Source: Acidicapsa dinghuensis (lineage in GTDB: Bacteria; Acidobacteriota; Terriglobia; Terriglobales; Acidobacteriaceae). From it: a stretch of DNA of 64,000 nt. This document shows, piece after piece, positions 38,249 through 41,293 of this stretch. The notes under the pieces were generated by a model. That model was given only the letters and a program-made list of their open reading frames with translations. It did no database searches and was not told the DNA's origin. Position numbers and translations under genes: made by a program. Each line of letters begins with the position of its first letter. Within the stretch, counting starts at the first letter, position 1. Location: positions 48,768 through 112,767 of the forward strand of contig NZ_JAGSYH010000002.1 in NCBI RefSeq assembly GCF_025685685.1. Direction: 5' to 3'.

Positions 38249-38572
38249 ATGAAGGTCTTTTTGTTCGTGCTCCTGGCGACGGTACTCGAAGCAACAGGAG
38301 ATGCGGTTGTGCGGATTGCCCTGCATGAAAATAATGTGTCCGCCCGGCTTGGTTTTTTCCTGTGCGGAGCATTGGCGCTGACTCTTTATGGGACCTCGCT
38401 CAATATGGCTCCTGTGGAGTTTGCTCAGGTCACCGGCATTTATATAGCGACTCTATTTGTAGTCTTCCAGATCGCAAATTATCTGTTCTTTCGAACGCTC
38501 CCTACTGCTCCGGTATTTGTCGGTGGAAGCCTCATTATTGCCGGAGGGCTGATCGTTGGACTTTGGAAATAA
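38249..38572 (+). CDS. SMR/DMT-like four-helix membrane protein
   Basis: A 107-residue protein with four membrane helices, the size and layout of small multidrug resistance transporters. Glu14 in helix 1 (FVLLATVLEATGDAV) matches the essential Glu14 of EmrE. The Trp of EmrE helix 3 is absent (FAQVTGIYIATLFVV), and helix 4 is FVGGSLIIAGGLIVGL. It may therefore belong to another branch of the drug/metabolite superfamily. It stands alone and is followed by a terminator-like hairpin. Confidence 0.7.
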   Translation: MKVFLFVLLATVLEATGDAVVRIALHENNVSARLGFFLCGALALTLYGTSLNMAPVEFAQVTGIYIATLFVVFQIANYLFFRTLPTAPVFVGGSLIIAGGLIVGLWK

Positions 38573-38648
38573 TTGGGGTCACGGGCAAAGACCGGCGCAT
38601 CCAGGTTTACACATGGAGGATCACTGCTTTAGCCTATATATGTGTTTC

Positions 38649-38668
38649 GGAGCGACTTCGCTCCTTTT
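38649..38668 (+). terminator. Intrinsic terminator downstream of the SMR-like gene
   Basis: GGAGCGA-CT-TCGCTCC (38649-38664) is a perfect hairpin followed directly by TTTT. It lies 76 nt after the SMR-like stop and just upstream of the Cys-rich leader frame. Confidence 0.65.
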
Positions 38669-38676
38669 GATTTGAT

Positions 38677-38757
38677 ATGACTGGTCTGAATATATCCCGC
38701 GAATGCAAGTGCCCCTGTTGTTGCGGAGCCGCGCGGGTGTGTATCTCTGTGACCTGA
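38677..38757 (+). CDS. Candidate cysteine leader peptide
   Basis: A 26-codon frame, ATG at 38677-38679 and TGA at 38755-38757. Its middle reads ECKCPCCCG and it holds six Cys codons in all (codons 10, 12, 14, 15, 16 and 22). It lies 104 nt before the peroxiredoxin start, at the head of the cysteine gene cluster, and is followed by a terminator-like stem-loop. Polycysteine leader frames that control cysteine operons are known from mycobacteria. I see no Shine-Dalgarno sequence before the ATG. A weak promoter-like pair (TTGATT at 38667, TATATC at 38691) would start transcription inside the frame and, if real, would rule it out. Confidence 0.45.
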   Translation: MTGLNISRECKCPCCCGAARVCISVT

Positions 38758-38825
38758 TTCAAGATTTCAGAGAGATACGAAGAGGTTCTCGAACCCACCC
38801 GCTGCCAGATGGCCGGGTGGGTTTT
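38733..38825 (+). promoter_or_regulatory. Candidate transcription attenuator with alternative pairings
   Basis: AACCCACCCG (38792-38801) pairs perfectly with CGGGTGGGTT (38814-38823), with an inner GCC-AGAT-GGC and two more T after it: a terminator-like stem with a short T tail. Its left arm can instead pair with GCGGGTGTGT at 38733-38742 (9 of 10 bases against 38793-38802), inside the end of the leader frame. A further perfect 8-bp stem, GTATCTCT (38741-38748) with AGAGATAC (38771-38778), competes with the second pairing. Confidence 0.5.
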
Positions 38826-38860
38826 CACTTTAAGGCTGAATTGCACTCAGGAGAATTCAA

Positions 38861-39517
38861 ATGTCGCTTCGCATCAACGATATCGCGCCGGATTTTACGG
38901 CCCAGACCACGCAGGGACCAATTCATTTTCACGAATGGATCGGCGACAACTGGGCAGTGTTGTTTTCACACCCGAAGGATTTCACGCCTGTATGCACGAC
39001 GGAGCTGGGAGCCGTTGCCGCATTAGAAAAGCAATTCGCCGCGCGCGGCGCCAAGGTGATTGGGCTAAGCGTTGATCCCGTTGAGAGTCACTCGAGCTGG
39101 TCCAAAGATATCGAGGATGTGAGCGGCCATGCCGTGAATTACCCGATTATCGGTGACACTGAGCTCAAGGTAGCAAAGCTGTATGACATGCTTCAGGCCG
39201 ATGCGGGCGATAGTAGCGAGGGGCGTACGCCCGCGCAGAATGCACCTGTGCGCACGGTATTTGTCATTGGTCCTGATAAGCGGATTAAGCTGACGATTGC
39301 TTATCCGATGTCGACCGGGCGCAATTTCGATGAGATTGTCCGGGTTCTCGACTCGATTCAGCTTACGGCCAAGCATCGCGTGTCTACGCCGGCTAACTGG
39401 AAGCAGGGAGACGACATCATCATTGGCGGCGCGGTTTCAAACGAAGAGGCAGACAAGATCTTTCCGGGATATAAGACGGTCAAGCCTTATCTGCGCACCG
39501 CAGCACAACCGAAGTAA
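38861..39517 (+). CDS. Peroxiredoxin, 1-Cys Prx6-like
   Basis: A 218-residue thiol peroxidase that reduces hydrogen peroxide and alkyl hydroperoxides. The peroxidatic Cys is in HPKDFTPVCTTELGAVA (near residue 46). The length, GLSVDPVESHSSW and the C-terminal dimer extension (HRVSTPANWKQGDDIIIGGAVS) match the 1-Cys Prx6 group, and there is no obvious resolving Cys. ATG follows AGGAG closely. First gene in a run with cysM, mec and cysO, which suggests cysteine supply under oxidative stress. Confidence 0.93.
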   Translation: MSLRINDIAPDFTAQTTQGPIHFHEWIGDNWAVLFSHPKDFTPVCTTELGAVAALEKQFAARGAKVIGLSVDPVESHSSWSKDIEDVSGHAVNYPIIGDTELKVAKLYDMLQADAGDSSEGRTPAQNAPVRTVFVIGPDKRIKLTIAYPMSTGRNFDEIVRVLDSIQLTAKHRVSTPANWKQGDDIIIGGAVSNEEADKIFPGYKTVKPYLRTAAQPK

Positions 39518-39573: not shown

Positions 39574-40515
39574 ATGACACCTGTAGAGAGTGCGGAACAG
39601 ATTGGTTCATCGCTTCTGGAACGGATTGGCAACACGCCATTGATCCGGCTGGATGGGCTTGTTCGTGATTTGGATGGCGTAAACCTGCTGGCGAAAGCGG
39701 AGTGGGTGAATCCGGGCGGGAGCGTTAAGGACCGGGCCGCAGCGAGCATGGTCCTGGATGCGCAGAAGAGCGGCAGGCTCGCGCCGGGTAAGACGCTGCT
39801 GGATGCGACGAGCGGCAATACCGGCATTGCTTACGCGATGCTCGGTGCGGCACTTGGTTTTCCTGTGCTGCTTGCCATGCCGTCGAATGTGTCGCCGGAG
39901 CGCAAGCATATTCTTCGCGCTTATGGCGCTGGCATTGAGTGGACCGATCCAGACCTCGGGTCGGATGGAGCGATACGGCGCGCGCAGGCTCTGGCTGCCG
40001 AAGATCCGGATCGCTTCTGCTACATGGATCAGTACTCGAACGACGCCAACTGGCGGGCGCACTATCGGACCACAGGACCGGAGATCTGGCGACAGACGGA
40101 AGGCACCATTACACATTTTGTTGCGGGTCTGGGCACGAGTGGAACGTTTACTGGCACGGTGCGACGGCTGAGGGAGTTGAATCCTTCTCTGAAAGCGGTC
40201 AGCATGCAGCCCGATTCGCCTTTTCATGGGCTGGAAGGGTTGAAGCATATGGCGACGGCACTTGTACCTGCGATCTACGATCGACAGCTTGCGGACTGGA
40301 CCGAAGAGGTGGAGACGGAATCGGCATATGCGATGGCGAAGCGGCTTGGCCGCGAAGAAGGATTGCTGATCGGCATATCGGCTGCGGCTGCGGTAGTTGC
40401 AAGCCTGCGCGTGGCTCGTGCAGAAGCTGCGGCTGGGCGGCGGGCGACGATCGTGACGGTATTGCCGGATTCCGCGGACAAGTATCTGAGCGAGCGCTTC
40501 TGGGAGGAAGAATGA
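39574..40515 (+). CDS. cysM: PLP-dependent cysteine synthase, CysM-like
   Basis: A 313-residue fold-type II PLP enzyme. The Schiff-base Lys is in NPGGSVKDRAA; the substrate loop is TSGNTGIAYAMLGAALGF; the phosphate-binding loop is GLGTSGTFTGT. The C-terminal part GLKHMATALVPAIYD resembles mycobacterial CysM, which uses O-phosphoserine and the thiocarboxylated carrier CysO. The context with mec and cysO supports that reading over a sulfide-using CysK. ATG at 39574 was chosen to fit the family N terminus; the ribosome site is weak. Its stop overlaps the mec start (ATGA). Confidence 0.9.
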   Translation: MTPVESAEQIGSSLLERIGNTPLIRLDGLVRDLDGVNLLAKAEWVNPGGSVKDRAAASMVLDAQKSGRLAPGKTLLDATSGNTGIAYAMLGAALGFPVLLAMPSNVSPERKHILRAYGAGIEWTDPDLGSDGAIRRAQALAAEDPDRFCYMDQYSNDANWRAHYRTTGPEIWRQTEGTITHFVAGLGTSGTFTGTVRRLRELNPSLKAVSMQPDSPFHGLEGLKHMATALVPAIYDRQLADWTEEVETESAYAMAKRLGREEGLLIGISAAAAVVASLRVARAEAAAGRRATIVTVLPDSADKYLSERFWEEE

Positions 40516-40952
40516 GCGTGTTGCTGTTGAGCCGCGGGCTCTACGACGAGCTTCGCGCGCATGGGGAAGAAACTTATCCGCATGAGTGCTGCGGAGCGCT
40601 GCTGGGTACGCCGGGATCAGGCGGGTGGCATGTAACGAAGGTGGTGCGCGCAGGTAATACCCGCACGGATTCGGCGCACAATCGTTACAGTATCTCGCCG
40701 CTTGAACTGGTACGCATCGAAAGAGACGCGCGTCAGCACGGATTGGAGATCGCTGGTTTTTATCATTCGCACCCGGATCATCCGGCGCAGTGGTCCAAGA
40801 CGGATTTCGAGGAAGCGCACTGGCTGGGCTGCGTCTACGTCATTACGACGGTTGCCAAGGGCAAAGCCGATGTCACGAACTGCTTCCTGCTGTCGGGCGC
40901 GAGTGAAGAGGAGAAGCAGTTTCAGAACATTTCCATCGAAGTTCGGGATTGA
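40512..40952 (+). CDS. mec: JAMM metalloprotease, Mec-like
   Basis: A 146-residue MPN/JAMM zinc protease. The Glu is in YPHECCGALLG and the zinc site in FYHSHPDHPAQWSKTDFE (His, His and Asp). In mycobacteria, Mec cuts free cysteine from the CysO-cysteine adduct made by CysM. The gene overlaps cysM by 4 nt and is followed after 65 nt by the sulfur carrier gene, so the same role is very likely here. A second role, trimming the carrier's extra terminal residue, is proposed in the findings. Confidence 0.92.
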   Translation: MSVLLLSRGLYDELRAHGEETYPHECCGALLGTPGSGGWHVTKVVRAGNTRTDSAHNRYSISPLELVRIERDARQHGLEIAGFYHSHPDHPAQWSKTDFEEAHWLGCVYVITTVAKGKADVTNCFLLSGASEEEKQFQNISIEVRD

Positions 40953-41017: not shown

Positions 41018-41293
41018 ATGAAGATTTTTATTCCAACCCCGCTGCGGCCCTATGCTGGCGGAAAAGACGCGGTTGAACTGCAAGCACCGACGATTGCCGC
41101 GGCGCTGGATGAGCTGACCCAATCGAATCCCGAACTGCGGAAACACCTGTTTACGGAGCAGGGGAAGGTTCGCTCGTTTGTGAATCTGTATTTCAACGAT
41201 GAGGACGTGCGATACCTGCCGCAGAAGGAAGAGACGGAAGTATCGGCGAACGATACGCTCACGATTATTCCCTCGATTGCGGGCGGTCTGTAG
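41018..41293 (+). CDS. cysO: CysO/ThiS/MoaD-like sulfur carrier ending Gly-Gly-Leu
   Basis: A 91-residue ubiquitin-fold sulfur carrier. It starts MKIFIPTPLRPYAGGKDAVE and has the CysO-like FVNLYFNDEDVRYLPQ and TLTIIPSIAGG. Carriers of this type end in Gly-Gly, which is adenylated and thiocarboxylated. Here one codon (CTG, Leu91) follows the Gly-Gly before the TAG. The gene has AAGGA before its ATG. No activating E1-like (MoeB/ThiF) gene lies in the window, so activation must be encoded elsewhere. Confidence 0.9.
   Translation: MKIFIPTPLRPYAGGKDAVELQAPTIAAALDELTQSNPELRKHLFTEQGKVRSFVNLYFNDEDVRYLPQKEETEVSANDTLTIIPSIAGGL

Follow-up and report, generated by a model that had tools for sequence, protein, structure and literature searches.

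The window analyzed here, a 64,000-nucleotide stretch of the Acidicapsa dinghuensis genome, contains a short polycysteine frame in front of a peroxiredoxin gene, and the element is read, with a probability of roughly 85%, as a ribosome-mediated transcription attenuator that responds to the supply of cysteinyl-tRNA. This reading rests on sequence comparison, without expression, 5′-end, or ribosome data; conservation of the frame, its Cys codons, both predicted alternative helices, and their geometry is supported by comparison, and the transcription start, translation, stalling, and the effect of cysteine and its direction are inferred. From the matches found, devices of this kind seem to recur throughout the family, in front of sulfur genes and peroxiredoxins as well as a tRNA-Cys gene, and the set is read as a putative ribosome-mediated cysteine attenuation regulon of Acidobacteria, although its function is inferred and there are no bench data. 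The bacterium would probably sense usable cysteine and switch on a peroxide-removing enzyme together with cysteine-making genes when it is low.

In the proposed mechanism, RNA polymerase would start near position 38642 and make the leader, and a ribosome would enter at 38677. With charged tRNA-Cys scarce, the ribosome would stall at codons 10 to 16 and leave a segment of the leader (segment 2, 38733-38742) free to pair with segment 3, so that no terminator forms and prx-cysM-mec-cysO is transcribed. With cysteine plentiful, the ribosome would run on and mask segment 2, and pairing of segments 3 and 4 would terminate transcription.

The leader and its likely promoter

All features of the locus lie on the forward strand. 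The leader frame (38677-38757; MTGLNISRECKCPCCCGAARVCISVT followed by a stop) has 26 codons, of which codons 10, 12, 14, 15, 16, and 22 are Cys; the first five (38704-38724), which correspond to homologous Cys runs in relatives, are the putative control codons, and codon 22 (38740-38742) lies outside this cluster. Segment 2 (38733-38742; GCGGGTGTGT), supported by covariation and folding as the 5′ arm of the antiterminator, has the core GCGGGTG at 38733-38739, and is followed by a hairpin (38741-38778, with arms 38741-38748 and 38771-38778) that is predicted by folding and lacks sequence conservation in the leader alignment. Segment 3 (38792-38802), for which there is likewise folding and covariation support, is common to the antiterminator (38796-38802) and to the intrinsic terminator formed with segment 4 (38792-38825), whose arms (38792-38801 and 38814-38823) fold with −22.3 kcal/mol and are followed by the short T tail TTTTCACTTT. 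Segment 2 matches the complement of the left terminator arm at 9 of 10 positions, and the fold of the 184-nt leader as a whole beats shuffles (z = −2.7), with 2 of 200 shuffles equally good. Downstream, domain matches identify an AhpC/TSA peroxiredoxin with a 1-cysPrx_C domain (prx, 38861-39517), a cysM-like pyridoxal phosphate (PLP) enzyme (39574-40515) and a mec-like JAB protein (40512-40952), both with inferred start codons, and a cysO-like ThiS-family sulfur carrier (41018-41293). The sequence-only reading had described the six-Cys frame, the stem-loop with its short T tail, the alternative pairing of the left terminator arm with segment 2, the lack of a Shine-Dalgarno sequence, and the gene order prx-cysM-mec-cysO, and all of these stand: the hairpin folds as drawn, no Shine-Dalgarno sequence is seen ahead of the frame, and the four genes carry AhpC/1-Cys Prx, PLP-dependent enzyme, JAB, and ThiS domains. 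Before the leader is a 107-aa small membrane-protein-like frame (38249-38572) without a Pfam match.

The promoter is likely the site TTTACA-18-TAGCCT (38606-38635), with a −35 at 38606-38611 and a −10 at 38630-38635, although this is a consensus match only, without a mapped 5′ end, and a stricter consensus promoter scan of the window region listed no promoter. The site scores 9.6, with a predicted start near 38642, and its −10 and spacing recur as TTGACA-18-TAGCCT in four relatives (L207, L226, L233, and L238), in line with the need of the mechanism for a promoter upstream of the frame. A possible promoter inside the frame, which had been raised as a weakness of the original proposal (TTGATT-18-TATATC, 38667-38696), scores 5.1 versus 9.6 for the upstream site, near the shuffled background of 4.5 ± 1.9, and was rejected. 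Across the 113 called leaders, the top-scoring upstream site averages 8.5, compared with 4.5 for shuffles, and 60 of these sites score at least 9.5, mostly as TTGACA-17/18-TANNCT; in 49 of the 60 an in-frame start codon lies 5 to 13 nt after the −10, and many of the frames could thus be leaderless or almost leaderless. In the window, as in L195, L205, L206, and L238, an in-frame start is found only at least 20 nt past the −10. The predicted 5′ untranslated region of the window (∼35 nt) contains a hairpin (38649-38664; −10.9 kcal/mol), a layout shared with L238, which has a hairpin in the equivalent position between promoter and ATG. The window hairpin is also in the list of terminator-like structures, and it is not excluded that it is the terminator of the preceding gene, although the L238 counterpart speaks otherwise.

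Conservation, pairing, and ribosome geometry

In searches for prx, 97 of 150 relatives had a match at E ≤ 1e-30 and at least 231 of 398 family genomes had one at E ≤ 1e-60; many of these loci, though not all, were fetched together with 80 named loci and oriented by tblastn, those left out among the ∼80%-identity prx matches listed including G456, G448, G183, and G274. A Cys cluster was scored where a frame of 8 to 60 codons, no more than 330 nt upstream of prx, has at least three Cys in six codons. All 90 fetched close prx loci, window included, have such a frame (at least 78.5% identity, with non-identical upstream sequences), whereas 4.65 are expected from dinucleotide shuffles of these loci. 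Among more distant prx loci the frame is present in 17 of 74 (1.95 expected), and in 3 of 59 (1.35 expected) outside the class; the latter were sorted by record title and include L159 (Vicinamibacterales), which is of the same phylum, and two titled only "bacterium." None of four second prx copies (77 to 78% identity, chosen as such and including that of the window genome) has a Cys-cluster frame; both copies in genome G259 carry leaders (L233 and L238). A DNA search with the leader region gave matches in just 2 of 61 genomes, the window's own included. Codons starting with TG in the frames of 77 leaders are 315 TGC, 182 TGT, and 16 TGG, and the other two frames differ; TG-starting codons are thus almost only Cys, suggesting that the Cys meaning is kept rather than a TG repeat.

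In most relatives no cysM follows the prx behind the leader, and all 29 other genomes examined have cysM-mec-cysO elsewhere, as a locus of its own (with mec and/or cysO alongside cysM in 28). None of these 29 cysM loci has a leader-like frame (in 8 of them a script picked up frames containing scattered Cys no more than 1,400 nt away, none leader-like by eye), and the leader as a property of cysM was therefore rejected. A polycysteine leader with the complete prx-cysM-mec-cysO order recurs in genus g9 (L226 and L238), in which L207 is prx-cysM-mec as far as fetched and L233 is prx-cysO. Judged from these neighborhoods, what is conserved next to the leader is prx, itself followed by tRNA-Cys, and not the cys genes. 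The sequence-only reading of an attenuator of a cysteine operon thus keeps the support of comparison for its mechanism, but not for its partner, which is prx, or for a device confined to this operon.

Type A leaders (alignment A1, 60 sequences taken from 75 candidates; a later alignment took 15 of 16) have a Cys run, GCGGGTG near the stop, and a terminator of ACCCACCCG and CGGGTGGGT. Type B leaders (alignment A2, 13 sequences) end in ...CCC..APVCG before the stop, and their GCGCCGG....TGGGT pairs with ACCCACCCGGCGC. In three type B leaders (L039, L091, and L092) segments 2 and 3 are kept and the right arm of the terminator is apparently lost; such leaders could work at the level of translation or be in decay.

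In the 76 type A leaders measured, the median distance from the start of segment 2 to the end of the stop codon is 16 nt. With an assumed ribosome footprint, segment 2 is wholly free in 75 of the 76 when the A site holds the first Cys codon, and a ribosome at the stop covers at least half of it in 67, which is the geometry that the mechanism predicts for stalled and finished ribosomes. In all 76 the terminator starts 16 to 49 nt past the stop codon, which should put it out of reach of a ribosome positioned there. Compared with the type A median, the window leader stops ∼3 codons later, with segment 2 starting 25 nt before the end of its stop codon, and masking of segment 2 would thus be partial in this copy. 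In folding predictions for the window, nascent RNA occupied up to 38716, before arm 4 is made, adopts the 2:3 pairing, and the RNA left free by a ribosome at the stop adopts 3:4. For the complete RNA, even when a ribosome occupies the first Cys codon, the terminator is better by 7.7 kcal/mol (−47.9 versus −40.2 kcal/mol), and the choice must therefore be kinetic.

The window copy is atypical in its displaced stop, its −35 (TTTACA), and its short T tail, and it could be a decaying relic of an element that is functional elsewhere in the family. It has just three consecutive Cys codons and a weaker −35, there is no tRNA-Cys found behind its operon, and the second copy in the genome sits at a tRNA-Cys gene; however, the promoter-like site, the hairpin, the Cys cluster, and both helices are kept, and the window matches the leader model with 70 bits (E = 6.8e-17), albeit as a member of the training set. 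Decay is unlikely, without being negligible, and a working attenuator remains the preferred reading of the window copy.

Both helices of that attenuator covary in type A leaders. In the antiterminator of the 60 aligned sequences, 79.7% of cells are paired, compared with 39.2 to 54.3% when the partner is slid by 1 to 3 columns, and there are 31 two-sided changes, a number reached in none of 500 shuffles, although they are concentrated, with columns 39 and 41, two of four such pairs, carrying most of them. The terminator is 88.2% paired with 9 two-sided changes (as high in 0 of 500 shuffles). The type B antiterminator and terminator fit (85.2% and 94.9% paired) without significant covariation in either helix among the 13 sequences, and the CTGGCG:CGCCAG pairing of type C leaders is 94.4% paired with 2 two-sided changes, a count that 10 of 500 shuffles also attain. 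Native duplexes of segment 2 and arm 3, computed for 101 of the 113 called leaders (90 after removal of near duplicates), are better than swapped pairs (0 of 5,000 permutations), but clade structure may contribute to this, and relatedness inflates the shuffle tests. The advantage over mononucleotide-shuffled segment 2 is modest (−14.5 versus −11.6 kcal/mol), with 18% under the 5th percentile. Conservation of the Cys codons in relatives and compensatory changes in the stems had both been proposed as checks by the sequence-only reading and are both found, and every prediction of its attenuation mechanism that comparison can address held, the dependence on cysteine being inferred.

This covariation of a conserved terminator and antiterminator in type A leaders is what tells against a leader acting mainly on translation or on Rho-dependent termination, in which the hairpin would be incidental. 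Polycysteine frames that start close behind a promoter do resemble mycobacterial ones, and a few leaders are without a terminator (such as L039, L091, and L092), leaving this as a slim possibility. For 8 of the 113 called leaders the script returned no terminator, and a few frames that pass the Cys-cluster threshold are without a good one, the terminators of L218 and L260 being very weak. A third alternative, a functional small Cys-rich peptide binding metal or active in redox, with a terminator that only separates its frame from prx, is suggested by the strong conservation of Cys and the neighboring redox enzyme; it is very unlikely, as length and non-Cys residues vary widely, the conserved C-terminal letters follow the RNA pairing, and leaders also stand before genes without a redox theme (cysD, ssuA, and cysG).

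Relationship to known systems

The trp, his, and leu attenuators of enterobacteria combine a leader peptide containing control codons with mutually exclusive 2:3 and 3:4 helices. The Acidobacteria leaders are alike in both respects but would sense cysteine and often have a start codon near the predicted 5′ end; neither a conserved 1:2 hairpin nor homology is claimed. They have the features expected of an attenuator of the trp and his kind: a Cys-rich leader frame, an intrinsic terminator between the frame and the first gene, a predicted antiterminator that excludes the terminator by taking up its 5′ arm (without significant covariation in type B), and control codons placed such that segment 2 is free with a stalled but not a terminating ribosome, an arrangement only partly present in the window copy. 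The genes behind the leaders also largely serve the amino acid that would be sensed.

Mycobacterial polycysteine leaderless small open reading frames (sORFs) place a short polycysteine frame at or near the mRNA 5′ end before cys and sulfur operons, a position that the predicted promoters suggest for many of the Acidobacteria frames, and such attenuators (Canestrari et al. 2020) are reported to be cysteine responsive, according to the available portions of PMC13236596 and PMC9094748. The mycobacterial system is termed translation attenuation in what is accessible of PMC13236596, whereas the Acidobacteria leaders have a covarying intrinsic terminator and antiterminator, lie in another phylum, and have prx and tRNA-Cys as targets; conserved terminator hairpins were not found in Mycobacterium cys leaders, as far as the accessible part of PMC1262725 goes. 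Given the conserved terminator, the Acidobacteria leaders are described as working like the mycobacterial polycysteine sORFs and are not filed as a member. The uORFC-8-2 element shares tandem Cys codons, a terminator, and predicted ribosome-mediated attenuation, but it has two tandem Cys codons and, in the available sections of PMC8632094, is described from Rhodobacterales alone and from no gene other than cysS; the opened Acidobacteria leaders stand before prx and other genes, with no cysS among them. PBC-28-3, from the same sections of PMC8632094, is also a cis element before peroxiredoxin (ahpC-like) genes, but no uORF is described there, and its long stem beside the start codon is read as protein binding. 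A known ligand-binding riboswitch or T-box, which a terminator and antiterminator before sulfur genes might also suggest, is disfavored and scarcely credible, with no match to an Rfam riboswitch or T-box covariance model in either the window region, where there is one chance-level snoRNA match (E = 4), or 20 related loci, where there are tRNA genes only.

According to the available part of a 2010 survey (PMC2965389), hardly any of the attenuators predicted in Acidobacteria has an associated function, and the literature searched, with few subscription papers and some sources only in part, showed no polycysteine attenuator from Acidobacteria and none governing a tRNA gene or a peroxiredoxin. As far as searched, then, the kind of device is known, and its lineage, targets, and terminator-based layout are new. 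If the reading is true, one recognizable device would explain a set of these Acidobacteria attenuators and tie thiol supply to peroxiredoxin.

tRNA-Cys genes and the wider set of leaders

A tRNA-Cys(GCA) gene lies on the same strand, 22 to 182 nt after prx, in 84 of the 95 type A leader loci, a set that includes the doubtful leaders L065, L086, and L090 (no tRNA-Cys) and L252, which has too little sequence behind prx; none of the 59 loci placed outside the class by their record titles has a tRNA-Cys behind prx. The promoter signal between prx and tRNA-Cys is not above that of shuffles (mean of 4.24 versus 4.00), and none of the 84 gaps scores at least 10, in contrast to 46% of the 95 leaders. 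An inverted repeat without a T run, possibly a processing site, stands just before tRNA-Cys in seven loci (L184, L188, L190, L194, L195, L205, and L076). In type B, 4 of 18 loci (L043, L057, L091, and L092) have a tRNA-Sec gene no more than 400 nt past prx, and there is one behind a second prx type (L322).

The window genome has a second leader (L360; G000:C10, 328440-328549, minus strand), followed by a terminator, tRNA-Cys (328310-328385), and an SDR gene, and a leader directly before tRNA-Cys is likewise found in the window's genus in genomes G001, G005, and G011. Among 20 tRNA-Cys loci (L448 to L467), a Cys frame followed by a terminator was flagged ahead of the tRNA gene in 15 (L455 being doubtful), L458 and L467 have model matches upstream, and no leader was found upstream of L457, L463, and L465. 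The window genome has 48 tRNA matches, 46 of them named by ARAGORN, and two are tRNA-Cys; the other tRNA-Cys has no Cys-cluster frame in the 500 nt upstream. ARAGORN also reports a tRNA with the stop-reading anticodon TTA in this genome (L510; G000:C9:613731-614016).

A closed translational feedback loop can be envisaged, for which we judge the odds to be about even, in which a leader sensing charged tRNA-Cys would control a tRNA-Cys gene, a peroxiredoxin, and much of sulfur assimilation, so that cysteine supply, tRNA dosage, and peroxide defense form one regulon governed by ribosome stalling. In the window's genus the leader would act on tRNA-Cys directly; most type A loci would do so by way of a prx-tRNA-Cys transcript, and some other loci would rely on prx-tRNA-Sec. 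This is the boldest part of the reading, and all function in it is inferred from genome sequences. It would be unusual for attenuation to govern a tRNA gene through stalling at the very codons that its tRNA reads. The idea can be tested directly in Terriglobus albidus (DSM 26559, L107), a cultured species that carries leader-prx-tRNA-Cys.

Models of the leaders (R1 to R3) were run over the genomes, and matches were opened in sets of 28 and 30, which share 7 and represent 51 distinct places. All 28 of the first set have a Cys-containing frame (at least three Cys), and the first large gene is a second peroxiredoxin type in 5, prx in 2, a sulfite/nitrite reductase-like gene in 11 (type A in 7 and type B in 4), cysK in 2, an SDR gene in 2, and cysG, ssuA, a rhodanese-type sulfurtransferase, and a tannase (with tRNA-Cys between leader and tannase) in 1 each, with 2 lacking an assigned gene. 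The second set has reductase A in 18, reductase B in 2, cysG in 2 (one 588 nt away), and 8 others, which include TauE-like genes (L406, with L412 and L413 alike by eye), cysD, an SrpI-like encapsulin behind a rhodanese-like frame, carbonic anhydrase, and threonine ammonia-lyase; L414 has no Cys frame, and that of L409 is doubtful. Gene names from HMMs rest on representatives, with the reductases, whole-length cysG, and the sulfurtransferase below NCBIfam cut-offs and cysK, ssuA, cysD, and the encapsulin above them. The models contain the Cys-run sequence, and the Cys richness of the matches is thus partly built in, but the gene functions are not; these are largely sulfur and cysteine functions, and prx and SDR do not fit simply. 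An SrpI encapsulin and a cysteine desulfurase are upregulated on sulfate starvation in a cyanobacterium, as given in the accessible part of PMC8049743, in keeping with the sulfur regulon reading.

Model R1 at E ≤ 0.1 has matches in 149 of 150 genomes; the window genome has 30 at E ≤ 1, of which two were accepted (the window and C10:328440) after nine others were opened, C16:83789 being doubtful. Model R3 at E ≤ 1e-4 matches in 21 of 247 phylum genomes, of which 14 are in the family and the other 7 are uninspected; of its matches in other families of the class, only L406, L410, L412, and L413 were opened. The doubtful match in the window genome (L379; G000:C16:83789-83892) is weakly leader-like, with ICCWAC and a terminator, and precedes a threonine ammonia-lyase gene. 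A locus in the window's genus (L411/L446; G003:C8:150973-151099) has a Cys-rich leader ahead of a rhodanese-like frame, and 506 nt farther along lies the gene for a family 2A (SrpI-like) encapsulin.
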